From NCBI GenBank assembly GCA_947653315.1, contig CANTGP010000079.1:1-10455 (forward strand): a stretch of 10,455 nt of DNA, written 5' to 3'. The notes beneath the pieces were generated by a model, which was not told where the DNA came from, searched no databases, and worked only from the letters and a program-made list of their open reading frames with translations. Made by a program: the position numbers and the translations under genes. The DNA is from an uncultured Lachnospiraceae bacterium. Lineage in GTDB: Bacteria > Bacillota > Clostridia > Lachnospirales > Lachnospiraceae. Of this stretch, positions 559 to 10,340 are shown piece after piece; position 1 is the stretch's first letter, and each line of letters begins with the position of its first letter.

Positions 559-990
559 CTACTCCCCGTCAAACTCATAAAACCCATACCCCTCAATCAG
601 TTCCACCAGTTTCCCCTCATACCCCTTGGATAAAGCATAAGGATATTCCGCCTCCTGCAAATACTGTACCGCCAAAATATAATGCTTTTGCCCGATTACA
701 TGTTCCCAGTTCGGTCCTTCCTGGTTTTCTTCCCTCCATATCGCGAGATAATTATTGTGGGAACGCACTGCATGACGGACATTCTTATGATACCGGATAC
801 CGTCATACCTGCGCGGAAACCATATGTTTTCCTGCCCCTCTTTTATGGATTTCCCCCAATCCGTCCCCTCAACGGCTATGGCGACGACAAGGGACGGCAG
901 GCAGATTTTCCTGTCCCGCCAATCCTCCACCGCCGGTTCCGCAACCTGACGGACAAATTCATTCCTTTCTTTCCGCAACGCAATCCGCAT
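559..990 (-). CDS. Compact glucosaminidase-like (GH73/FlgJ-type) protein
   Basis: A 143-residue protein resembling a minimal N-acetylglucosaminidase domain, an enzyme group that cuts the glycan strands of peptidoglycan. Seen: NEFVRQVAEPAVEDW at 10-24, ICLPSLVVAIAVEGTDWGKS at 29-48, with Glu41 at the position of the family's catalytic Glu, and a C-terminal LVELIEGYGFYEFD like the usual end of FlgJ/LytG-type domains. The standard NNLFGIK block after the catalytic Glu is not visible (NIWFPRRYDG instead), so it is divergent and activity is uncertain. There is no signal peptide and no wall-binding domain. ATG 990 has AAGGAG about eleven bases upstream and lies inside the end of the phosphatase gene (32-base overlap), indicating coupling. 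It is the last gene of the operon, so wall-cutting functions bracket the whole set. Confidence 0.72.
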   Translation of the reverse strand: MRIALRKERNEFVRQVAEPAVEDWRDRKICLPSLVVAIAVEGTDWGKSIKEGQENIWFPRRYDGIRYHKNVRHAVRSHNNYLAIWREENQEGPNWEHVIGQKHYILAVQYLQEAEYPYALSKGYEGKLVELIEGYGFYEFDGE

Positions 991-3196
991 CCTTCCGGCT
1001 CTCCTTTCCGCAGGATACCTCTTTTTTCCTGCAAATCAAATGGTTTTTTCCTTCCGTGTATTTGTAACCGATCCAGTCCATCCGCTTCTTTACCAAATAA
1101 ATACCCAAACCGCCTTTCTTCCTGTCTTCCAGTAATTCCTCCACGTCGGGATCCGGACGTTCCAGCGGATTATAAGGGATTCCGTCATCCTCGAAATACA
1201 GGCAGATTTCCCGTTCCCGTGTCTTGCCGCCCTCTGACGGGGTGTCTTCCACCGCAATTCCAAGCGTGACTTCTTTTGCCCCGCTGTAATAGCAGATATT
1301 GGAATAAATTTCATCCACCGCCATTTGTATTTTCAGGATGGTCTGTATGGATATTCCATTATCCAATAGCGTGTTTTCCACAAAATCCGCAAATTCACGG
1401 ATATGCCCCATATCCGGTATGCCGGTTTTTTTCTCATATACCGTTCCATGGTAGGTAAGCCCTATCATCGTAATATCGTCGAATTGTTCGGTATCTTTTT
1501 GGAAACGGCTGATGTCTTCCCATATTTCCTTTAACAATTCCTCCGGTGTCCTTACATTTTCTTTTTCCGCCACTGTTTTCAACCGCCCTTCCCCGTATAA
1601 TTCCTTTTGCACACTGGTGGCTTCCGTTACGCCGTCCGTGTAAAGCAGAATGGTATCTTCCTTATCCAAGTGTATCCGCGACGCACGGTAGGGCGCTCCC
1701 TCCATGCCCGCCAATACCAGCCCGCCAAGAGTCATGTCATAATAACAGTCCCCTTCCCGTTTCCGTATCAGGGGACGGCAATGCCCCGCATTGACAAAAA
1801 CAAGTTCCCCGGTGGAAAGGGTCAGAATACCAATCCATGCGGTTACGAACATACCGTTTTTGTTATTGCCGCAAAGCCTGTCATTGATTTCCCCTACCGC
1901 CTGCTCCAAAGGATTGCCGGCCGCCATATGGCTCATGATATGGCTGCGGATTAACGTGCGGGATACTACCATGAACAATGCCGCAGGTACCCCTTTGCCG
2001 GATACATCCGCCATGACCAGCGCCAAACGGTCCCCGTCCAGCAGAAAAAAATCATAAAAATCGCCGCCCACCCCTTTTGCCGGCATCATAAACGCCGCAA
2101 TGGAAAATTCTTTCCGGTCGATAAAAGCCCCTTCCGTCTCCGGCAGCATGTCCGCCTGCAGTCTCGCCGCCACCGTCAGTTCCGTCCGTATTTTTTCCTT
2201 TTCCGCCGTAATCCTTGTCATGCTTTCGATATAATAACCGACATCCTGCATCATTTTCCAAAATGCCGCCGCCAAATATCCGGGTTCCCCGGACAGCCGT
2301 GCCAGTTCCCTGCATTCCTTCATCCAAACCGCCATACTTTCTTCCATGGCTTTCCCCCCTGTTTCTCCGGCTCCCTTCCGCCTCCTGTCCGCGTATCCTA
2401 CCGCCACTTTGGAAAGTTTTTCGATAGGAATGGTTACTTTGTTCTCCAAATGCCCTAAAAAACAGATTGAAACCCCGCACAAGGCAAAAAAATCCAGGGA
2501 AACCCGTATATATACCCGGTTCCAAAGCTGTACCGCATCTTCCGTATTATGCACGGCTTCCGCATAGGATGCAATCCCCATGAAAAGGGCGGAAAGCATA
2601 CTTAAGAGCAAAAAAATAAGCACAAACCTCACGTTCAGCGTCACCACATGACGGCGCTCCTGTCCTCCCGCCATACTGCACAGGAGGATAACAGGTATTC
2701 CAAGCAGTACGGAAAACACCAGGTTATTAAAAAACAAAAGCAGGGTGGATTGTGACCAAAACACACCGAGTCCGAGGAAATGCAGCATTCCCCCAAGCAT
2801 AACCGCCATCAGAGCGGAATCCAAACATACAATCCCTATGTAACGCTTAATATCCTCCACGTTATGAAACCATATCCCGCCCTTTTTTCCGTCCTTCCGT
2901 TTTCTTTTTCCCCGCCACAGAAGATGGGGCAGCCATCCGTACAGAAATTGCGGGAGAAATCCGTACAGGCATACCGGCAGCGGGTACCCGGAAAGCAAAT
3001 CCGCCGCAAAATTGCCCGCCGCACACCCAAACGCTCCCGTGGCGCCAAATAATAATCCAAACGCAGTAGGAAACGCGCTTGCCGGACGTACTTCCGTCAA
3101 TCCCGCCAATCCGAACAACTTACGGAACGGCATCGTAACCAAAAAGAACAGAACGGCAGTGATTAAACATATATTTATTTCTTTTAAAATTTTCAT
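959..3196 (-). CDS. Membrane sensor fused to SpoIIE/PP2C phosphatase and RsbW-like ATPase
   Basis: A 745-residue partner-switching regulator. Residues 1-255 form a membrane domain with about seven or eight helices, homologous to the preceding gene (LTEVRP at 33-38, GNFAADL at 61-67). A linker with charged helices (255-345) follows. Residues ~346-583 are a SpoIIE-type PP2C phosphatase: GGDFYD 377-382, MADVSGKG 395-402, VNAGHCRPL 468-476, LYTDGVTEA 518-526 and FDDIT 572-576, so the metal-binding aspartates are present. Residues ~590-725 are an HATPase_c/RsbW-like domain: MAVDEIYSN 625-633 (N box with Glu629 and Asn633), EDDGIPYNPL 669-678 and GGLGIYLV 695-702. In known systems these are a STAS phosphatase and kinase; here both are in one chain, with the STAS partner in the same operon. 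ATG 3196 with AGGGG is preferred; the frame upstream to 3343 is antisense to nothing but overlaps the preceding gene. It overlaps the last gene by 32 bases. Confidence 0.93.
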   Translation of the reverse strand: MKILKEINICLITAVLFFLVTMPFRKLFGLAGLTEVRPASAFPTAFGLLFGATGAFGCAAGNFAADLLSGYPLPVCLYGFLPQFLYGWLPHLLWRGKRKRKDGKKGGIWFHNVEDIKRYIGIVCLDSALMAVMLGGMLHFLGLGVFWSQSTLLLFFNNLVFSVLLGIPVILLCSMAGGQERRHVVTLNVRFVLIFLLLSMLSALFMGIASYAEAVHNTEDAVQLWNRVYIRVSLDFFALCGVSICFLGHLENKVTIPIEKLSKVAVGYADRRRKGAGETGGKAMEESMAVWMKECRELARLSGEPGYLAAAFWKMMQDVGYYIESMTRITAEKEKIRTELTVAARLQADMLPETEGAFIDRKEFSIAAFMMPAKGVGGDFYDFFLLDGDRLALVMADVSGKGVPAALFMVVSRTLIRSHIMSHMAAGNPLEQAVGEINDRLCGNNKNGMFVTAWIGILTLSTGELVFVNAGHCRPLIRKREGDCYYDMTLGGLVLAGMEGAPYRASRIHLDKEDTILLYTDGVTEATSVQKELYGEGRLKTVAEKENVRTPEELLKEIWEDISRFQKDTEQFDDITMIGLTYHGTVYEKKTGIPDMGHIREFADFVENTLLDNGISIQTILKIQMAVDEIYSNICYYSGAKEVTLGIAVEDTPSEGGKTREREICLYFEDDGIPYNPLERPDPDVEELLEDRKKGGLGIYLVKKRMDWIGYKYTEGKNHLICRKKEVSCGKESRKDADCVAERKE

Positions 3197-3245
3197 TCTT
3201 TTACCCCTATCCGCTTTGGCGGACCCTAACCCGATGGCAGATGTT

Positions 3246-3956
3246 TTAAACCGATAACAGAAATAGCCCTGCTGCCGCAGGCACGGATACCGCCAGCATC
3301 CACGGCGACCCTTCCGGATTCCGCTCCAATACTTCCACCGCAACCCAAAGCAGAATCATCAGACCGGCATACACAGGCAGTACCGTCCTTTTTCCAAAAC
3401 CGCTCTCCAAAAAACGGTATCTCTCCGGGGCATTACACCCCTGTATGCCCACACTGTCGGAAGTAAGAACAATCAGTATGGGCATTCCCAAACCGATGGA
3501 AAATCCTATATTATTAAAAAACACATATGTATAAATCTGCCTGAGCCACGTTCCCTGCAGCAGGTAAAGCCCAAACGATAAAATCCACGCTACGGTCATG
3601 GCGCCAAGCAGGCAGATAAAACAGTAACGGAAAATGTTTTTTCCGCTGTGCAAATTCGGCGCATCCTCCGACAAAAGGTACCACAACCGGTAGGGCAGCC
3701 ATGCCGCCATAAAATTTCCGATAAAACCCAACACGGAATTTAAGGAAAACGTTCCTGCCAAATCCGCAATCAGGTTCCCCAAGCCGCATGCCAAGGCGCC
3801 CACCGGTCCGCATAACAACCCCGCCACCGGCGGTATGGCGTTAACGGGTCTTACTTCCGTCAGCCCCTCTACCAATACCATCACCTTAAACGAAATCCCC
3901 AAAATAAGAAAAACCGCCAAAACAATAAAAAACTGTTTCTGTTTCCCCGTTTTCAT
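3246..3956 (-). CDS. Polytopic membrane protein, paralogue of the sensor domain of the next gene
   Basis: A 236-residue membrane protein with about six hydrophobic helices. It shares two blocks with the N-terminal domain of the phosphatase encoded next. The first is LTEVRPVNAIPPVAGLLCG at 32-50, continuing with a GALACGLGNLIADL-type segment; the phosphatase has LTEVRPASAFPTAFGLLFG at the same place. The second is FFNNIGFSIGLGMPILIV at 147-164, matching FFNNLVFSVLLGIPVILL. The small, Gly-rich helices with conserved Asn and Asp recall ECF-transporter S components, but I cannot confirm that. The frame is open far upstream to 4451, but that part is the antisense-like shadow of the transporter gene; ATG 3956, overlapping the transporter stop as ATGA, is the right start. 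It may bind the same ligand as the phosphatase or form a complex with it. Confidence 0.78.
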   Translation of the reverse strand: MKTGKQKQFFIVLAVFLILGISFKVMVLVEGLTEVRPVNAIPPVAGLLCGPVGALACGLGNLIADLAGTFSLNSVLGFIGNFMAAWLPYRLWYLLSEDAPNLHSGKNIFRYCFICLLGAMTVAWILSFGLYLLQGTWLRQIYTYVFFNNIGFSIGLGMPILIVLTSDSVGIQGCNAPERYRFLESGFGKRTVLPVYAGLMILLWVAVEVLERNPEGSPWMLAVSVPAAAGLFLLSV

Positions 3957-4840
3957 TTTCCCCAATCCTCCAAAAACGAAAGCCCTGCCACGACCGCGCC
4001 AAATGCAATCAATACGGCTCCTGCCGCGGAGGATGCCAGAAAAGCCTGTCCGCCCCCGTAAGCCGCAGGCAAAAGCAAGGACAAAACCAAAGTTACCACC
4101 GGTTCGGTGGAAGCAATAACGGTTACGCTTATGGCATCCGTATATTTCTGTGAAAACATTAAGGCAATATAGGCATATGCCTTGGAGAAAAATGCCAAAA
4201 TAAAAATATTGGAAAGCAATTCCCTTGTATATTCCAGCCCGAAGAAAGTATCGGGATTTTCCCTGTACCAAAGGACGAAACCCGTAAGCGCGGTAAAAAT
4301 CATTTGGACAATACAGATTAACAACGGATCTTCTTCCTTGGCATATCCGTCCACGGCAATGGTATATACCGCCGAACTGACACAGCCGCCCAGCATGTAG
4401 GCAGTTCCCAAACCGGAAAATCCCCTTACGGAAAATCCGCTGCCGACACACAATCCCGCCAAAATAATTATGGCGCCCACCATATGGTTTAACGTAGGTC
4501 TCTTATGGAAAAACCATTGCAGCAACGGAACGGCAATAATGGTCAAAGCCGCAAGAAAACTGGCATTTGCCGGATCCAGCATGGAAATTCCCTTCTTTTC
4601 CAAAAGCAGATTAACGCTTAAGATGGCGGAAAGCCAAAATCCCCGGACCCACGTCTTTTTACGCAGGTTTTTTAATTTACCCGCAAATGCTGCCGACAGA
4701 ATGATTGCCGCAATGCCGCAGGTCAATGTAAGGTACGCATAAGAGGAAAAATCCGGCGGAAGGTTCCGGATAAAAATATAAGACGCCGCCCAACAGAGCG
4801 TAATGGAAAAAAGCAGGATATTATTTTCCGTTTTCGTCAT
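3953..4840 (-). CDS. DMT-superfamily transporter with two EamA domains
   Basis: A 295-residue polytopic membrane protein with about ten hydrophobic helices in two EamA repeats (residues ~5-137 and ~145-287). Typical marks include ITLCWAASYIFIRN near the N-terminus, LDPANASFLAALTIIAVPLL at the end of repeat 1, and IASTEPVVTLVLSLLL in repeat 2. DMT proteins of this type export or import small metabolites such as amino acids or nucleotide derivatives; the substrate cannot be read from sequence. The ATG at 4840 follows GGGAGGGG with a four-base gap and overlaps the DUF3574-like gene by 20 bases. Its stop overlaps the next ATG as ATGA. Its place inside a signalling operon suggests it moves a ligand or product linked to the pathway, but a passenger role is equally possible. 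Confidence 0.9.
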   Translation of the reverse strand: MTKTENNILLFSITLCWAASYIFIRNLPPDFSSYAYLTLTCGIAAIILSAAFAGKLKNLRKKTWVRGFWLSAILSVNLLLEKKGISMLDPANASFLAALTIIAVPLLQWFFHKRPTLNHMVGAIIILAGLCVGSGFSVRGFSGLGTAYMLGGCVSSAVYTIAVDGYAKEEDPLLICIVQMIFTALTGFVLWYRENPDTFFGLEYTRELLSNIFILAFFSKAYAYIALMFSQKYTDAISVTVIASTEPVVTLVLSLLLPAAYGGGQAFLASSAAGAVLIAFGAVVAGLSFLEDWGK

Positions 4841-5435
4841 GGAACCCCTCCCTTTCCTCCCGTATTCCGCTGTAATACATGGAACCGGTATTTTTCTCCT
4901 CCAATAAAACGGAATCTTGGTTCAACGCCGGAAGGATATCGTCCATAATTTTTATGATATCTTCTTCTTTCCCACGGACGGTATAAACCAACGTCTGTTC
5001 GCTGGTCAGCTTTCCTTTTTGGTCCACCCAGCCGCCTTCCGCCCTTGTCATGGTATAACCGCCTGCATACCGGATACAGATTCCGCTTATGATTTCTTCC
5101 GCTTCCTCCGTGGAAACCAACTGCCGGTATTCATCCTTGTCATTTAACCCGATATACAGGATATATTCTTTTTCCGCGCCGTTATCCGTGATTCCCGTGA
5201 TTCCTCTTTGCCCTGCCTCCTCCCCCGTTCCGGCTATTTCCCACCGTTCCGTCAGGAAATAAGTGATGCCTCCGCCCATACCTCCGGCCAAAACAAAGGC
5301 AATACATGCGAGCAGGACGGTTTGTGTCTTCCATTTACCACTGCATTTATGATTACATTTACTATTACATTTCCATATATCATCATATGTATTGTTCTGT
5401 TTGCATTTCGATTCCTGATTCCCGTACCTCTGCAT
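4821..5435 (-). CDS. Membrane-anchored DUF3574-like protein with cytosolic Cys cluster
   Basis: A 204-residue single-pass protein. Residues 1-37 are polar and carry four cysteines (11, 23, 27, 31) in a Cys/Lys/Asn-rich setting. Residues ~38-62 are a Gly-rich membrane helix (LLACIAFVLAGGMGGGITYF). Residues ~90-190 resemble DUF3574: YILYIGLNDKDEYRQLVS, then GYTMTRAEGGWVDQKGKL, TSEQTLVYTV and MYYSG. The positive N-terminal side suggests the C-terminal domain is outside the cell. The start is uncertain: I use ATG 5435, but TTG 5447, close to GGGGGGAAGG, is possible, and a longer frame to 5504 would overlap the STAS gene. It overlaps the transporter gene by 20 bases. The Cys set could bind metal or sense redox, which is inference. 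DUF3574 has no firm function. Confidence 0.72.
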   Translation of the reverse strand: MQRYGNQESKCKQNNTYDDIWKCNSKCNHKCSGKWKTQTVLLACIAFVLAGGMGGGITYFLTERWEIAGTGEEAGQRGITGITDNGAEKEYILYIGLNDKDEYRQLVSTEEAEEIISGICIRYAGGYTMTRAEGGWVDQKGKLTSEQTLVYTVRGKEEDIIKIMDDILPALNQDSVLLEEKNTGSMYYSGIREEREGFHDENGK

Positions 5436-5463
5436 ATCTTCTTTCAAATTCCTTCCCCCGGTA

Positions 5464-5763
5464 TTATTCCAAATCCATGATTTCCGAAAAACCCGTAATG
5501 ACAAACACTTCCCTTACTTCCTCGTTGGCGTTTTGGACTGCCAGTCTTCCGTTCTGTTTTTTCATGGCCTTATGGGCGGAAAGCAATACCCTTAAACCCG
5601 CCGAAGATATGTATTCCAAATCCGAGAAATCCAGGATAACTTCCTTCCGTCCCTTCATCTCCCCTTCCAATTCCTCCTCAAGCTGCGGTGCCGTGGAGGT
5701 ATCCAGCCTGCCGCACACCTTTAAAACAATTTTGTCCTGTTTTCTCTTTATTTCAATGATCAT
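5464..5763 (-). CDS. STAS-domain anti-sigma-factor antagonist (SpoIIAA/RsbV type)
   Basis: A 99-residue single STAS domain. In known partner-switching systems, this protein binds an anti-sigma kinase when unphosphorylated and releases the sigma factor or other target; the kinase phosphorylates it on Ser and a PP2C phosphatase reverses this. Seen here: VCGRLDTSTAPQLEEEL at 16-32, LDFSDLEYISSAGLRVLL at 44-61 and an FVITGFSEIM end. Aligned by eye with SpoIIAA (MDSSGL), the phosphorylatable serine is Ser54 and the next position is Ala55. The start is ATG 5763, with AAGGAG and a five-base gap, overlapping the preceding stop as ATGA; a start at 5790 would add nine unlikely residues. The matching phosphatase/kinase is encoded four genes downstream in the same operon. 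No sigma factor is in the window, so its final target is unknown. Confidence 0.93.
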   Translation of the reverse strand: MIIEIKRKQDKIVLKVCGRLDTSTAPQLEEELEGEMKGRKEVILDFSDLEYISSAGLRVLLSAHKAMKKQNGRLAVQNANEEVREVFVITGFSEIMDLE

Positions 5764-6047
5764 AAAGACTCCTTTTCTTCTTCCTCCCATACGGGCTTTC
5801 GCGTAAAACCCACATGATAAGTGATTTTTTCCATGGTCAGTTCATGCTCCCCGATCAGATACCTTCCGACGGTAATGTCTTTTCCCACAATCACCCCTTT
5901 CGGGTAGCCGCTTAGGCATTTATTTAAAAGCGCTGCCTGTGCCTCCCTGGACTGGTCCGAAAGGGGATTATTGGGATTCACGCTCCCGATGGGAACTAAT
6001 TTTATATACCGGATATCTGCCAGGGTTGTTTTCTCATCCCGGCTCAT
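5760..6047 (-). CDS. Small protein of unknown family upstream of the STAS gene
   Basis: A 95-residue protein with no family I recognise. It has mixed polarity and looks folded (DIRYIKLVPIGSVNPNNPL, then AALLNKCLSGYPKGVIVGKD and ITVGRYLIGEHELTMEKITY), with a Glu-rich end (EEEEKESL). There is no membrane segment. It overlaps the DUF2589 gene before it by 14 bases and the STAS gene after it as ATGA, so its translation is probably coupled to both. The ATG at 6047 has no well-spaced Shine-Dalgarno: the only GA-rich sites are right next to it or about 15 bases away. This is consistent with coupling, but a different start is possible. Position suggests a link between the DUF2589 group and the signalling group. 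Confidence 0.7.
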   Translation of the reverse strand: MSRDEKTTLADIRYIKLVPIGSVNPNNPLSDQSREAQAALLNKCLSGYPKGVIVGKDITVGRYLIGEHELTMEKITYHVGFTRKPVWEEEEKESL

Positions 6048-7254
6048 CCTCTATCTGTTTATCCCCTTTCTTCCCGTCCGGCAATGCCGCCGGAGCACGT
6101 CCTGCCACCGCATCGCTGTATTCCGACTTTTTGTTGAAAATTTCCGTCTCTATCTGACTGACGTTTCTTTGGTTATCCACCGCACTTTTCTGTGCGCCAA
6201 GCAGGGCGGCATAATACGTTTCGCCTTTTTCGTATTCCTGCAGGTTTCCGTTTCCGTCCAATGCTTTTAGGGCAAACATTTCCGATACCCTGTCCGGAGA
6301 CGTATTGCTGTCGGCAATCATCCTGACAAAATCCCCCGCCTGGTTTTGGAATACATTCCAACATTGGTTGATTTCATCCATTGCCTGACTGTAACCCATT
6401 ACCAGCTTATCGCTTTCCTCTTTCTTCTTCTCCGCTGCCTCCCTCTCCGCGTCCGTTTTGGCTTCTTTTATTTCTTTATCCAATTTATCCCGGTCAATGG
6501 CGTTAATCAGTTTGGTCACGGTTCCCTGGTAAACATTTAACTGGGAACTGCCGATTCTTTTTAACTGTGCCAGACTGTTTTCAAGCCCTCCTTTGGCAGC
6601 CCCCAAACGGCTTTCCATTTGGCTGATTTCGCCGCGCAGCGCTTTTAATCTTTCCGCTTTCAGCCGCGCCTGTTCGGAAAGGCTTTGTCCGTTACCATCC
6701 TTAATGCTGCTTCCCACTAACATCGGCGCCACGTTAGCCGCCATCATGTCAAGTACCCTTGCCAGCCCTTCGGGTGTCCCGTGATTGGTGGCGCGGACGT
6801 CCACATGGTACTTTGCCGAATTATCGGAACTTCTCGTATTGGACTGGTGGGCGCTGATGCTGCCGGTCACACTGACTTTTACGATACCGAGATTAACGCT
6901 TCCGGTAATCGATGCCCCCATATCCATGGAAGATTCCTGCCGTTCGCTCTGTTTTACTTCCATATCGAATAAAATATTTACTTCATCCACCTGAAGATTG
7001 GGAATGGGCACGATTGCCAGCAGTGGAATGTCCACTTTCATTTCATCCAAATTACTGGTTCCGTCTTCGTTCGCACTGCGTTTCTGGTACCCAAATGCTA
7101 CCGTCTGTACTTTTCCTTCCCCGTCAAATCCTACACGGTTTATAAAGTCTGCCGTGGAATTGGCCAGTAAGGTACTGGCGTCCGCCGCCGCCCTTAAGGG
7201 GGCTCCGATTAACTGATCCATCTGTAATCCTGCAAATTGTTCCGCAATTGCCAT
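6034..7254 (-). CDS. DUF2589-family protein with central coiled coil (second, larger copy)
   Basis: A 406-residue protein. Residues ~8-105 are a clear DUF2589 domain: FAGLQMDQLIGAPLRAAADA, then VQTVAFGYQ, then IPLLAIVPIPNLQVDEVNI and LFDMEV. Residues ~110-185 add a Gly/Ser-rich beta region (MGASITGSVNLGIVKVSVTG) that is typical of longer family members. Residues ~190-285 are Lys/Glu/Ala-rich and helical, probably a coiled coil, followed by more helix and a polar, charged tail ending QIEDEPG. It has no signal peptide or membrane helix. A GTG codon at 7275 would add seven residues, but AAGGAGGA at about 7267-7261 is correctly spaced for the ATG at 7254, so I start there. The stop overlaps the next gene by 14 bases. 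With the first DUF2589 gene it forms a divergent pair with the same domain order, suggesting hetero-oligomers. Biochemical function is unknown. Confidence 0.88.
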   Translation of the reverse strand: MAIAEQFAGLQMDQLIGAPLRAAADASTLLANSTADFINRVGFDGEGKVQTVAFGYQKRSANEDGTSNLDEMKVDIPLLAIVPIPNLQVDEVNILFDMEVKQSERQESSMDMGASITGSVNLGIVKVSVTGSISAHQSNTRSSDNSAKYHVDVRATNHGTPEGLARVLDMMAANVAPMLVGSSIKDGNGQSLSEQARLKAERLKALRGEISQMESRLGAAKGGLENSLAQLKRIGSSQLNVYQGTVTKLINAIDRDKLDKEIKEAKTDAEREAAEKKKEESDKLVMGYSQAMDEINQCWNVFQNQAGDFVRMIADSNTSPDRVSEMFALKALDGNGNLQEYEKGETYYAALLGAQKSAVDNQRNVSQIETEIFNKKSEYSDAVAGRAPAALPDGKKGDKQIEDEPG

Positions 7255-7284
7255 AAAAATTCCTCCTTCCTGCACAGAAACCTG

Positions 7285-7902
7285 TTATGAATGCATAACC
7301 GTCTTTAATTCATTTACCGCAACGATTCCAGTCAAAGGTGTATTTCGGTAAGCCGATAATTCCCCTCTGATTTCTTCCACCTCCTCCGGTGTCTTCTTTA
7401 CGAATCCCGTGGTTTGGAAGTATGCTTCCGTCACTTTTTCCTCCCGGTCATCCACAACAATTACCTGCCTGCATGCCGCAACATAAATATCATCTTCCTT
7501 AAGCTGTATGATAATGACAAAATCCAGTCTCCGCGAATCGCTGTCATTTTCATCGCCGGATTCCCTGCATCTCATACCGCCAACGGTAATGCTCGGCTCA
7601 TCATGAATGGTAAACCGGATTTCCTTCTCCCCATCCCCTTCTTCCGGCAAAACGTCGTAAGCCTGCCGGAAAAGATTCGTAGGATCTTCGGAATCGCCGT
7701 ATTTCGCAAACAAATCTTCCCATTCTTCTTCTTTCTTTAATGCGCCGTATATCCTGTCCGACCGCTCAAACCATTCCACTTTTGCATTTCCGTCCGCCAT
7801 GGCATTTTCCACCACGATGTCAAACTTGTGTCCTATCCTTTTATTTTGGCTGTCCGTGACTGACATTACATTACATACTTTTATTTCCATAATTGTTTTC
7901 AT
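7285..7902 (-). CDS. Acidic soluble protein of unknown family
   Basis: A 205-residue protein I cannot place in a family. It begins with a beta-like segment (MEIKVCNVMSVTDSQNKR) and is strongly acidic. It contains an Asp/Glu/Ser-rich linker around 115-123 (ESGDENDSD), between strands that read FTIHDEPSITVGGMRC and LDFVIIIQLKEDDIYVAACRQVIVVDD. The pattern suggests an all-beta or alpha/beta fold. There is no signal peptide, membrane segment or recognisable catalytic motif. The ATG at 7902 overlaps a TGA of the K-rich upstream frame as ATGA, consistent with coupling. Met5 (codon at 7890) is an alternative, with AGAAAGGA about eleven bases upstream. It lies 30 bases before the second DUF2589 gene. 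Likely an accessory subunit of the DUF2589 group, inferred from position only. Confidence 0.75.
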   Translation of the reverse strand: MKTIMEIKVCNVMSVTDSQNKRIGHKFDIVVENAMADGNAKVEWFERSDRIYGALKKEEEWEDLFAKYGDSEDPTNLFRQAYDVLPEEGDGEKEIRFTIHDEPSITVGGMRCRESGDENDSDSRRLDFVIIIQLKEDDIYVAACRQVIVVDDREEKVTEAYFQTTGFVKKTPEEVEEIRGELSAYRNTPLTGIVAVNELKTVMHS

Positions 7903-7917
7903 CCTTTCTTACTAATT

Positions 7918-8062
7918 ACTTCTTTGCTTTTTCTTTGTCCTTTTTTGTCTTTTCTTTTTTCTCTTTTATTTCTTTTTTCCTTTTTTCTTTGTTCCTTTTT
8001 TCTTTTTTCCTTTTTTTCTTTGTTATCTTTTCCTTTTTGTCTTTTCTTTGTTTCTTTTATTC
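7918..8062. repeat. Polypurine/polypyrimidine low-complexity tract
   Basis: About 145 bases with almost only T and C on the plus strand, made of irregular T-runs separated by C, CC or TG. It includes a perfect 21-base mirror repeat at 7992-8012 centred on the C at 8002 (T6 on each side, then CC, then TT). Mirror-symmetric polypurine tracts can form triplex (H-) DNA, and the T-runs are prone to replication slippage. On the minus strand one frame reads through the whole tract as Lys/Glu/Arg codons. It covers the end of the 107-residue gene and the gap before the next gene. Composition is unlike the rest of the window. Confidence 0.85.
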
Positions 8063-8346
8063 CAAAATGTCCGGAGTGTCCGCAGCGGATTGAAAACAGA
8101 TTTTTTTCTTTTTGGCAGGAATTCCAAACCAATAATGTTTACGCTATCCACCCAAACCCACATTTCCCCGCCGGCATTCCGAAGTTCCGCATCCGACTGT
8201 AAATCCAGCATAAGCCGCAAATTCATCTCCTCCGCCAATTCTTCCGCATGAAGAAATATTTTCTGCCGGATGCGTTCCTGTTCTTCCCTGCGCAGCCTTT
8301 CCTTTTCCTTCCTTTTTCTTCCCATCCACAACCTTTTTTTATTCAT
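8023..8346 (-). CDS. Small charged protein of unknown family, 3' end in polypurine tract
   Basis: A 107-residue protein that I do not recognise. Residues ~8-45 form a very basic, then amphipathic, helix (KRKEKERLRREEQERIRQK...). A compact segment follows (LMLDLQSDAELRNAGGEMWVWVDSVNIIGLEFL), which looks like a small folded domain. The rest is Lys/Arg-rich, and the frame stops at TAA 8023-8025 inside a purine-rich tract. The ATG at 8346 overlaps the preceding stop by eight bases. Met8 (codon at 8325) has a better AAGG site and could be the true start. The +1 frame stays open from 8132 through the tract to 7899, and its TGA overlaps the next gene's ATG at 7902. The gene may therefore originally, or sometimes, end there with a long Lys/Glu/Arg tail of 50 or more residues. 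Position between the DUF2589 genes suggests a partner protein. Confidence 0.6.
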   Translation of the reverse strand: MNKKRLWMGRKRKEKERLRREEQERIRQKIFLHAEELAEEMNLRLMLDLQSDAELRNAGGEMWVWVDSVNIIGLEFLPKRKKSVFNPLRTLRTFWNKRNKEKTKRKR

Positions 8347-9196
8347 AATCTTTATCCAATCCTGCTTCGATTTCCTTATTCATGATCTTTTCCTGATATT
8401 CCATAATCCGGTTTGCAATGTTGGACTGCGCCATCAGGTATTTATCCTTGTCAAACTCCCTCGTTACTTCCTCATAGGCATCATAGCTGATTTGCTGCAT
8501 CCGCTCCTGCTCCGTAATCATATCCGAAATCTTTTGGTAAAGCTGTTTCAGCTTCTTGATTTTCGCCTTCATCTTGGAAACCTGCTGCCAGGTATCCTTC
8601 TGTTCCACGGTTCCCAAATTTCCGTCTATCGCCACCGGAGTGGTATCCGTTTTCTTGGCAATCTGGTTGGAACTGAACAAATCCGTCAGCCGCATGATAC
8701 CTTCCGTCGCAGGCAGGGAAGAAATCCGCATCCGGTAATTGACGCGGGGAAGAAAATCGCTTTCCCTCTGCTCCGGGGAACAGATACGCGCCATAATCCG
8801 GCAGTTTCCTTCTTCCCCCTTTTCCGCCATTACTTCGGTGGAGAAATCAATTTCCGCCTTTTCCACATTCAAATTGGTAATGGGAACAATCGACAAAAGG
8901 GGAACCTGCATTTGGAGGTTGTCCACACTATACCCCTCATCGCCTTCCGGACGGACCTGTTCGTAGGCAATATTCATGTTATTTAACCGCACCGTTTCTT
9001 CCTGCCCATTCTGCCGCAGGGTACCCATACTTTTAATGGCATCCACAACCTGCGCACGCAACTGCTGGTTGGATTTGGCAAGGGCATGCAAAGGCGCATA
9101 AACCAAATCATCCAACGGAATAAAATCACTGTCCTTATAACCTTCCTGTCCGCTGCCGCCCGCAGCTTCTTCCCGGTATTCCCTGTCTTCCGCCAA
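8339..9196 (-). CDS. DUF2589-family protein with C-terminal coiled coil (first copy)
   Basis: A 285-residue soluble protein. After an acidic, disordered-looking tail (1-23), residues ~24-130 match DUF2589: the FIPLDDLVYAPLHALAKSN helix, a strand set, and the family core QVPLLSIVPITNLNVEKAEI followed by DFSTEV. The second DUF2589 protein of this operon carries the equivalent core IPLLAIVPIPNLQVDEVNI. Residues ~200-280 are highly charged and helical, probably a coiled coil. There is no signal peptide or membrane segment. The start is TTG at 9196, chosen because AGGAGG lies eight bases upstream. The stop overlaps the next gene's ATG by eight bases. The function of DUF2589 is unknown; the coiled coil suggests oligomerisation, perhaps with the other DUF2589 protein. 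Lying directly behind a wall hydrolase suggests the product must pass, or act at, the cell wall, but this is inference. Confidence 0.85.
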   Translation of the reverse strand: MAEDREYREEAAGGSGQEGYKDSDFIPLDDLVYAPLHALAKSNQQLRAQVVDAIKSMGTLRQNGQEETVRLNNMNIAYEQVRPEGDEGYSVDNLQMQVPLLSIVPITNLNVEKAEIDFSTEVMAEKGEEGNCRIMARICSPEQRESDFLPRVNYRMRISSLPATEGIMRLTDLFSSNQIAKKTDTTPVAIDGNLGTVEQKDTWQQVSKMKAKIKKLKQLYQKISDMITEQERMQQISYDAYEEVTREFDKDKYLMAQSNIANRIMEYQEKIMNKEIEAGLDKDYE

Positions 9197-9237
9197 TGTT
9201 CCTACCTCCTATCCTGCGGACTTATGGGATATTTCCA

Positions 9238-10272
9238 TTATCCCATAAAAAGCGCCCTTTCTTCTTCCCTGCGCCGCACCAGTCCGGCGAGGACTTTTCC
9301 GCCGCCCTTATTGTACTGGAGCATTTTATCCGCCACGGTATCCGCATCCCTGCCCGTTACCAACTTCTGCAGATTGCCGTTTCCGCAGTTATAACAAAAA
9401 CTGGTCAAGGCATCGAAACGGTTTTGGGTCAACGGGAAAGTAATCAATCCCTTTTTCAAGCAATTGTTCACATAATCCCCGTATTTTTTCAAATCCTCCT
9501 TCAGCAATGCCTTTGCCGCATCCTCGGAAGCCAGCCTGTCCCCGGGATTCACTCCCGCCGTATGCCCGTACCCAATCGTCCACACGCCTGCCGGACACTT
9601 ATAAGCCTCTAAACGGCATCCTTCAAACCCGGCAACCAATTCCACACACCGGTCCGAAACCTTCATTTCCCCTGCCGTCTTCGCCGTCCCAACGCCGGAA
9701 ATCACCCCATGCATTGCAGCACTGACATCCGCCCGGAAACCGTCCATGGAATAACCGCACTGCAGCCCCTCCCAAAGATGATCGGGATCGCCATGTCCGG
9801 AAGCAATTCCCCTTTCATGCCCCTCCTTATGGCTGACAATAACCCCGTCCGCAAGGGGATCCAGCCCGAATTCCCTGCAAAGAAACGCAAACAACTCCAC
9901 CGCCGCATCATACGTCCTTTTTACCACAGCCAACGCCGCATCCCTGACGGAACAGGTAAAGGAAGCGCCCCCCGTATACTTCAAACAGGAAGGCTCACAC
10001 ATCTCCACCCCAATATGAGTATCGTTGGAACTCCCTCCCCCATGCCATGCCCGGTGGTCCCAGGGCAGGGTTTGGTACACCTTCCCCGTATTGCCGTCAA
10101 TAAAAGCATGGACACATGCCCTCGCCGCATCCGGACGGTTCCACTGACGCATAAACACCTCCGCCGAAGGCTGGGGACAACCTACGCTGTGCAGCATTAG
10201 CCCCCGTACCTTAATCTTCCTCCCTGCCTGAAAGCAGGGATTTTTTGTCAGAATACTCTCCAAAATTTCCAT
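9238..10272 (-). CDS. Two-domain endolysin-like enzyme: PGRP/amidase plus GH24 lysozyme
   Basis: A 344-residue peptidoglycan hydrolase with two catalytic modules. Residues ~15-175 look like a PGRP/Amidase_2 domain (N-acetylmuramoyl-L-alanine amidase, cutting glycan from stem peptide). Candidate zinc ligands are His28 in the LMLHSVG strand and His160 in SGHGDPDHLW; an Asp lies where T7-type amidases have the last ligand. Residues ~203-343 are a GH24 phage-type lysozyme: the catalytic Glu217 in GFEG, then YKCPAGVWTIGYGHT at 224-238. Cys226 sits where T4 lysozyme has Asp20, a substitution common in phage endolysins. The C-terminal helices and LVRRREEERALF end are typical of GH24. There is no signal peptide or membrane segment, so export would need a holin, lysis or an unseen route. 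The ATG at 10272 has AGGAGG seven bases upstream. It is the first gene of the operon, 41 bases before the DUF2589 gene. Family assignment is firm; its role outside a prophage is inferred. Confidence 0.93.
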   Translation of the reverse strand: MEILESILTKNPCFQAGRKIKVRGLMLHSVGCPQPSAEVFMRQWNRPDAARACVHAFIDGNTGKVYQTLPWDHRAWHGGGSSNDTHIGVEMCEPSCLKYTGGASFTCSVRDAALAVVKRTYDAAVELFAFLCREFGLDPLADGVIVSHKEGHERGIASGHGDPDHLWEGLQCGYSMDGFRADVSAAMHGVISGVGTAKTAGEMKVSDRCVELVAGFEGCRLEAYKCPAGVWTIGYGHTAGVNPGDRLASEDAAKALLKEDLKKYGDYVNNCLKKGLITFPLTQNRFDALTSFCYNCGNGNLQKLVTGRDADTVADKMLQYNKGGGKVLAGLVRRREEERALFMG

Positions 10273-10302: not shown

Positions 10303-10340
10303 ACATAATACGATATTATGTAAAAGCATCTTTCCGCCAA
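10303..10340 (-). promoter_or_regulatory. Candidate operon promoter overlapped by a 19-base operator-like dyad
   Basis: On the minus strand, TTGGCG (10340-10335) is followed by a 16-base spacer and TAATAT (10318-10313), a plausible sigma-A-type -35/-10 pair. It would start transcription about 30-35 bases before the first ATG. The stretch 10303-10321 is a perfect dyad, ACATAATA and TATTATGT around a three-base centre. It covers the -10 hexamer and the likely start site. That placement suits a dimeric repressor that blocks the promoter. The regulator is not in the window. The dyad is seen directly; its function as promoter and operator is inferred from position. Confidence 0.4.

Follow-up and report, generated by a model that had tools for sequence, protein, structure and literature searches.

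A recurrent DUF2589 cassette of Lachnospiraceae with phage-type lysins, a partner-switching module and an apparently invertible promoter segment: a candidate system for self-lysis and release

Several partner-switching systems, among them HsbR/HsbA, SypE/SypA and SiaA/SiaC, carry the PP2C and HATPase domains in one protein. In the type 10 secretion system (T10SS) of Yersinia entomophaga, a holin/endolysin/spanin cassette lyses a fraction of the cells; YenLC and SmaLC are lytic cassettes of this kind, and lysis of a specialised subpopulation frees proteins that were folded in the cytoplasm (available portion of PMC10847048). Invertons served by tyrosine recombinases are described from gut Clostridia, including group 139, which goes with invertase group 35 and has 32 of 33 from class Clostridia (available portion of PMC11892184). 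Described here is a stretch of 10,455 nt, hereafter the window, which is contig C79 (CANTGP010000079.1) of an assembly from an uncultured Lachnospiraceae bacterium (GCA_947653315.1; 3.24 Mb, 508 contigs, stated completeness 81%). It carries a gene cassette that would combine an inverton, a lysis cassette and a partner switch, all of known kinds, built around DUF2589 (PF11655), a family for which we know of no function. The cassette is read here as a chromosomal, phage-derived device for self-lysis and release with two gates, one phase-variable and the other opened by a signal, and our confidence in this reading is evenly divided.

The cassette resembles the HsbR-, SypE- and SiaA-type systems in having a STAS protein beside a PP2C protein with a HATPase on the same chain. 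It differs from them in its dCache/HAMP or ECF-S-like membrane input and in having no known target, and the match to the SiaA model lies far below the cut-off of that model (E 2.9e-9). The likeness to T10SS, as far as the available portion of PMC10847048 describes it, is a regulated phage-type endolysin outside a prophage. Such an endolysin, without signal peptide, was found here in flanks judged by clustering and reading to be other than prophage; lysis of a subpopulation is shown in T10SS and is proposed for the cassette. Unlike T10SS, the cassette has no recognised holin or spanin and has instead a DUF2589 pair and two small proteins, g3 and g6; its hosts are Gram-positive, its partner switch is encoded within the operon, and its promoter lies on an apparently invertible segment. 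Because the holin, one of the parts that define T10SS, was looked for and not found, the cassette is not filed as T10SS, though it would work like one. With the invertons of gut Clostridia, as given in the available portion of PMC11892184, it shares inverted repeats and a nearby tyrosine recombinase, and the repeats enclose a promoter that would read into the operon in one of its two orientations. The cargo differs, being a lysis cassette; group 139 was compared by description only, and in the main text of that article no word begins with lysozyme, amidase, hydrolase or phage. A search by title and abstract start, with most subscription journals outside its range, found no paper that describes this combination.

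Twelve genes on the minus strand of the window, g1 to g12 in order of transcription, span positions 10272 to 559. With likely ATG starts, six of the eleven gene junctions overlap and the largest gap is 120 bp. The original prediction, made from the sequence alone, had listed these co-directed, tightly spaced genes and their content, and both the coordinates and the Pfam domains agree with it. The first gene, g1 (9238..10272), encodes a bifunctional phage-type lysin with an N-acetylmuramoyl-L-alanine amidase domain (Amidase_2) and a GH24 Phage_lysozyme domain, and is without a hydrophobic N-terminus. It is followed by g2 (8339..9196), the gene of DUF2589-A (285 amino acids (aa), Pfam E 1.4e-15), and by g3 (8023..8346), a small variable protein of 107 aa without a Pfam family. 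DUF2589-B, with a long C-terminal tail, is encoded by g5 (6034..7254, Pfam E 2.9e-39), whose open reading frame (ORF) opens at 7275 and has its likely ATG at 7254. The two DUF2589 proteins score 136.8 and 59.0 bits, and the gathering cut-off of PF11655 is 23 bits. The conserved partner g6 (5760..6047; 95 aa) has no Pfam family either; its predicted structure is beta-alpha-beta-beta-alpha, with a predicted local distance difference test score (pLDDT) of 84.7. The regulatory genes are g7 (5464..5790), a STAS anti-anti-sigma-type protein with an SSAGLR motif (STAS E 1.2e-20), and g11 (959..3196), a multi-span membrane sensor with a SpoIIE PP2C domain (E 9.8e-46) and HATPase_c_2 (E 2.4e-13).

One DUF2589-B scan of genome contigs yielded 46 related loci (L numbers below; genomes have G numbers), all from Lachnospiraceae, as are the closest relatives of the window by DUF2589-B, with the exception of L028, from a Gastranaerophilales metagenome-assembled genome, and L045, from a Eubacterium. 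Both DUF2589 genes lie on one contig in 45 of the 46. A lysin gene is present in 41 of the 42 loci whose DUF2589-A gene starts more than 1.6 kb into the contig, g3 in 43/46, g6 in 42/46 and the STAS gene in 38/46, and a PP2C-motif protein occurs in 28 of the 34 loci with more than 6.5 kb downstream; several of the missing core genes in these counts are contig ends. The order of the core genes is constant and the flanks, by clustering and reading, vary between loci. The association is thus more than a chance one, and inside Lachnospiraceae the neighbours of the DUF2589 genes are consistent, as the original prediction had anticipated. The cassette is uncommon: the g6 profile matches 8 of 397 genomes of the family, and DUF2589 is found in 8 of 291 genomes at class level and in 2 of 398 at phylum level, with the genome of the window in every count. 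In the genus of the window itself, locus L295 (G004:C64) has g6 and the STAS gene after a diverged DUF2589-like protein, called by profile match and without a Pfam match, and no lysin; it may be a decayed or stripped cassette.

Inverted repeats were found between an upstream tyrosine recombinase gene and the lysin gene in L005 (L073 is the same record). The strict pair ATACGATAT...ATATCGTAT, with a spacing of 121-469 bp, occurs in 22 loci, always before the lysin gene, and nowhere else across 778,822 bases of these loci. Addition of L008 and L032, which have one altered base, and of L099, which belongs to the L034 genome and probably carries the upstream half of the L034 cassette on its contig, brings the loci with repeat pairs to 25. 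In all 25, a TTGACA box (at most one mismatch) lies within the segment, 17 bp from a -10 that is formed by the distal repeat, and this promoter points away from the operon. The corresponding -35 slot at the proximal repeat comes within one mismatch in none of the 25 loci (mean 4.4 of 6 mismatches) and within two mismatches in 1 of the 21 loci counted. When the segment is inverted in silico, the proximal -10 acquires a TTGACA or TTGACT 17 bp ahead of it in 24 of the 25 loci; this -10 reads TATTAT, TATAAT or, in L008, TAATAT. In the remaining locus, L032, the distal promoter and the repeat pair were recovered by a repeat scan that does not use the core sequence. The same scan recovered all 21 strict pairs supplied to it as well as L008 and L299, L047 not being among the loci recovered, and matched none of 340 control windows. 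In 20 loci the proximal -10 resembles TATAAT more closely than the distal -10 does, in 4 the two are equally close, and in 1 (L008) the distal -10 is the closer. We consider it very probable that the promoter segment inverts.

Terminator-like hairpins that face the operon in the OFF orientation are also found within the segment, one in L008 (1261-1287) and two in L005 (6474-6624); none was found in the L018 segment by the same scan. In L011 (6362-7343) the recombinase gene and the lysin gene are separated by a single repeat and the invertible segment is missing, either by deletion or by collapse of the assembly.

Tyrosine recombinases of one family are encoded upstream in 17 of the 46 loci, that of L005 matching Phage_integrase with E 4.7e-24. 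They adjoin the repeats in 16 of the 25 loci with repeats, compared with 0 of 14 loci without (p 9e-5), and L099 carries a 17th adjoining recombinase. The 14 loci have at least 1 kb of upstream DNA, L011 (one repeat and a recombinase) and L029, L040 and L041 (little upstream DNA) being excluded; upstream DNA is likewise short in some of the 25, and closely related loci enter the counts singly. For L009, L017 and L018, which have repeats without an adjoining recombinase, a recombinase of 55-59% identity is encoded elsewhere in the genome, and no such recombinase was found at E 1e-20 in the genomes of the repeat-less L006, L023, L042 and L044. A cassette of the L042 type, in which no repeats were found, is carried by the cultured Lachnospiraceae COE1. 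The 13-base form of the site is confined to the cassette in 7 of the 8 carrier genomes queried, two of which (G009 and that of L005) are apparently one, and the genome of L016 has a variant. L299 has a different repeat core, ATACTATAT, and a more distant recombinase, thus site and enzyme differ together.

Among the 14 repeat-less loci, 6 have a LytTR-type gene upstream, versus 0 of the 25 with repeats (Fisher p 9e-4); these calls are Pfam-checked in L006 and L036 and otherwise made by clustering. On a tree of DUF2589-B the repeat label, with the window included, needs 7 changes (6-9 in bootstrap, 3 forced by the starred branches), although the tree has several long branches and an unsettled bootstrap. 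From these changes the switch seems to have been gained and lost repeatedly among cassettes, apparently being swapped in and out several times. The same recombinase family is also found in genome G812 at L089 (G812:C1:3160000-3179000), with the same repeat pair (sites 9005 and 9185) in the OFF state before an unrelated operon that includes, by reading, an endonuclease/phosphatase-like gene; a further half-site lies at 6414.

The window itself has a proximal repeat, ATATCGTATTATG, at 10304..10316 on the minus strand, reading towards g1, with its -10, TATTAT, at 10305-10310. With AAAGAT in the -35 slot (10328-10333), there is no -35 in the assembled orientation, and the contig stops about 140 bp past the repeat. 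The nearest relative, L005, whose DUF2589-B is 90% identical and forms a starred pair with that of the window in the tree, has the whole switch arrangement in the OFF orientation. By this comparison the operon promoter of the window is probably also on an invertible segment.

The partner-switching parts look intact, judging from their motifs and domains. The serine motif is present in 40/40 STAS proteins. In the sensor proteins of the window and 33 relatives, HATPase_c_2 is found in 32 of 34, HAMP in 30 and dCache_1 in 29; SpoIIE is found in all 34, as expected of proteins that were picked by their PP2C motif. The sensor of the window is itself without HAMP and without dCache. The pairing of a STAS protein with a membrane PP2C/HATPase regulator, as originally predicted, is thus borne out by the Pfam E-values and the serine motif. 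As to the lysins, g1 matches phage endolysin families of PHROGs, and a signal-like hydrophobic N-terminus was found in 0 of 54 g1 ORFs. None of g2-g7 has a transmembrane-like segment; g8 has one, yet only five relatives carry g8.

Five of the twelve window genes (g4, g8-g10 and g12) are optional. The 205-aa protein of g4 (7285..7902), without a Pfam family, is found only in the window and L005 and is a candidate cargo gene. The product of g8 (4821..5435) has one hydrophobic segment and is DUF3574-like slightly below the cut-off, g9 (3953..4840) encodes an EamA-family transporter, and g10 (3246..3956) a membrane protein with a weak ECF-S-like match. The last gene, g12 (559..990), is glucosaminidase-like by a sub-cutoff Pfam match and endolysin-like by PHROGs, again without a hydrophobic N-terminus. 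In a tally that includes the window, g4 occurs in one relative, g8 and the EamA gene in five each and g12 in nine. As a separate gene g10 accompanies g8/EamA, in four relatives by reading of labels (L005, L031, L035 and L038); 24 of the 46 loci have instead a gene of about 360 aa, of which one scanned member gave a sub-cutoff GNAT match. Hydrolases at both ends, as listed in the original prediction, are therefore a feature of the window and of 9 among the 46 loci. Its three unknown partners, the 95-, 107- and 205-aa proteins, indeed have no family in Pfam, but the 205-aa g4 is in one relative only.

Variable genes sit between split lysin genes, before the lysin gene or after the sensor gene. 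Jacalin-like lectin genes lie in or adjoin the cassette at L012:7508, L035:11254, L036:7556 and L297:4674; Pfam supports the calls in L036 and L297, and those in L012 and L035 were made by clustering, that in L035 without a Pfam hit. HExxH-bearing proteins, the motif being read by eye, are encoded in L007, L018 and their kin. L297 encodes an eCIS_core protein some 2 kb away from its cassette; no sheath, tube or baseplate genes were noticed in cassette loci, though no dedicated search for them was made. Further variable cargo families match nothing. One of these, cluster 5 (311-469 aa; L009, L015, L016, L032, L045 and L049), has conserved AKPH, GDYD.H and QHG.Q.NY motifs and gave no Pfam or PDB match. 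Toxin-like readings of the cargo genes are leads only.

DUF2589 genes also occur outside the cassette, and the family is named in a transcriptome paper on A. fulgidus (available portion of PMC3949148). Two Vibrio plasmids and one deltaproteobacterial plasmid have a DUF2589-B gene followed by g6, preceded in the Vibrio plasmids by a second gene annotated DUF2589. Thirteen non-cassette loci were read (L062-L072, L091 and L299), and a wall hydrolase is encoded nearby in five: PF11860 in L063 and L067, GH24 in L065, GH25 in L072 and Amidase_2 in L299. In L299 (6908-10771), which comes from a Lachnospiraceae genome, a recombinase and repeats precede a DUF2589 A+B+g6 set of the phage/proteobacterial type with the amidase. 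In L072 (1030-13145) a DUF2589 set with the GH25 lysozyme adjoins eCIS_core and Pvc16_N genes. A GIY-YIG-like protein (sub-cutoff) is encoded directly after a lysin-less DUF2589 pair at L069:8514-9107, with a similar case in L070. A short ORF at L074:7662-7964 fuses a double-glycine-type leader to the N-terminal helix of DUF2589 alone and is bacteriocin-precursor-like; a short match similar to it is found in G207.

A DUF2589-B relative is encoded in 152 viral contigs of IMG/VR, of which 80 were kept for neighbourhood counts. A second gene of one cluster, assigned to PF11655 from one scanned member, is present in 73 of the 80 and lies directly upstream on the same strand in 59. An endolysin-like cluster gene is present in 54/80, at a median distance of 1.6 kb; one member of this cluster matches PHROG endolysins and PG_binding_1 and another matches nothing in Pfam. 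The viral neighbours also include genes with weak matches to holins, spanins and tail fibres. The viral contigs look like related phages, therefore the closeness of the endolysin-like gene may partly reflect shared descent.

The proposed self-lysis and release would proceed as follows. The operon promoter would lie on the segment, which in the assembled state is OFF. In a few cells the tyrosine recombinase would flip the segment, joining the -35 to the -10 inside the proximal repeat, so that the operon starts and is expressed, presumably as one transcript, in these ON cells. At the second gate the PP2C/HATPase of the sensor would dephosphorylate or phosphorylate the STAS protein and thereby block or permit what follows. 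Once an ON cell receives the signal, its cytoplasmic lysins, with two or three wall-cutting activities, would reach the wall and open the cell. The DUF2589 pair with g3 and g6 may provide membrane passage, timing or a releasable particle, and the variable cargo genes between and after the lysins would encode what is released. The role in lysis and release is held with slightly better than balanced confidence. More speculatively, DUF2589-A/B with g6 could be a new lysis effector common to phages and bacteria, standing in for a holin or forming a two-protein particle to be released. In Lachnospiraceae it would be double-locked: inversion would pick the few cells and the partner switch the moment, and the bursting cells would deliver lectin-like or enzyme-like cargo in the gut. 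As to the joint role put forward in the original prediction, signal-controlled release with lytic enzymes is the part favoured here, and nothing shows a DUF2589 complex, envelope assembly or an exit path.

Several observations weigh against self-lysis under two gates. No holin was recognised, g2-g6 having no match to PHROGs lysis families, and the conserved DUF2589 helix is only weakly amphipathic. The window genes scanned include no sigma factor and no other recognised target of the partner switch. By profile and reading, and with not all of them Pfam-scanned, eight of the thirteen non-cassette loci show no lysin (L062, L064, L066, L068-L071 and L091); in L062 Pfam recognises no wall domain in a gene that carries a peptidoglycan-binding annotation, and L068 retains A, g3, B and g6 but has neither lysin nor STAS. 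Thus the link between DUF2589 and lysins, which recurs in the cassettes, is frequent but not obligatory. In viral contigs the DUF2589 pair shares the strand of the endolysin-like gene in only 20 of 54. Generic promoter scans of L008, L018 and L005 gave 3, 2 and 2 sites, compared with 1.5, 1.1 and 1.7 in shuffled sequences, and by themselves would not have revealed the switch; in L018 a weak 9-of-12 promoter match faces the operon as assembled, so that the OFF state may leak. The window holds the proximal repeat only; a second copy of the site was not found in its incomplete genome, in which the best recombinase is only 33% identical and none is close, thus the inference of a switch in the window rests on L005.

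The ON orientation was seen in no assembly, all 25 being OFF, and a complete repeat pair is missing from 18 of the 42 loci whose contig includes the lysin gene. Both observations fit repeats that are static, with the outward promoter yielding antisense RNA against the recombinase and another signal running the cassette; the LytTR-type genes of the repeat-less loci also fit. Uniformly OFF assemblies are expected if ON cells are rare or dying, and equally from a static segment. It should be noted, however, that a proximal -10 no worse than the distal one, as in 24 of 25 loci, is useless unless a -35 is brought in, that the spacing is 17 bp in both halves, and that recombinase and repeats co-occur even before another operon; static repeats are accordingly judged improbable. 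A different use of the same proteins is conceivable, in which DUF2589-A/B, g3 and g6 assemble into a particle, either in the cytoplasm or spanning the envelope, and the lysins only breach the wall locally in a cell that survives. L062, L064 and L068 do have DUF2589 together with g6 but no visible lysin, and in L072 a DUF2589 gene is near eCIS-type genes. Yet two or three wall-cutting activities per operon exceed the need of a local opening, and the core proteins of the window are without signal peptide or transmembrane-like segment. Such an envelope particle is judged rather improbable.

Two further explanations start from the phage relatives of these proteins. Infected cells might be lysed before the phage matures, with DUF2589 as a phage-derived sensor or decoy; the DUF2589 pairs of phages and the compatibility of signal-gated lysins with an abortive response would suit this. 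However, PADLOC models gave no match below E 0.09 to seven window proteins and three relatives (the STAS, PP2C and transporter genes being outside the scan), and cargo-like genes together with dCache sensors (29/34) suit signals from outside better, which makes an anti-phage suicide quite improbable. That the cassette is a decaying lysis module of a prophage, without present function, would account for the phage relatives of the lysins and of DUF2589. It is already disfavoured and very improbable, as the frames are open, the order is constant over 46 loci, the motifs are conserved, and regulators are present that phage lysis modules do not carry.

The gene content of the original prediction stands, and what it missed are the proximal repeat, the promoter switch, the recombinase and the occurrence in phages. 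If the reading as a two-gated self-lysis and release cassette is true, gut Clostridia would have a programmed form of both, in which a segment of about 120-470 bp shows by its orientation which cells are committed. Long reads would then allow altruistic lysis in the gut to be counted. A functional setting would be gained, too, for DUF2589, a family without known role that is present in 152 viral contigs.

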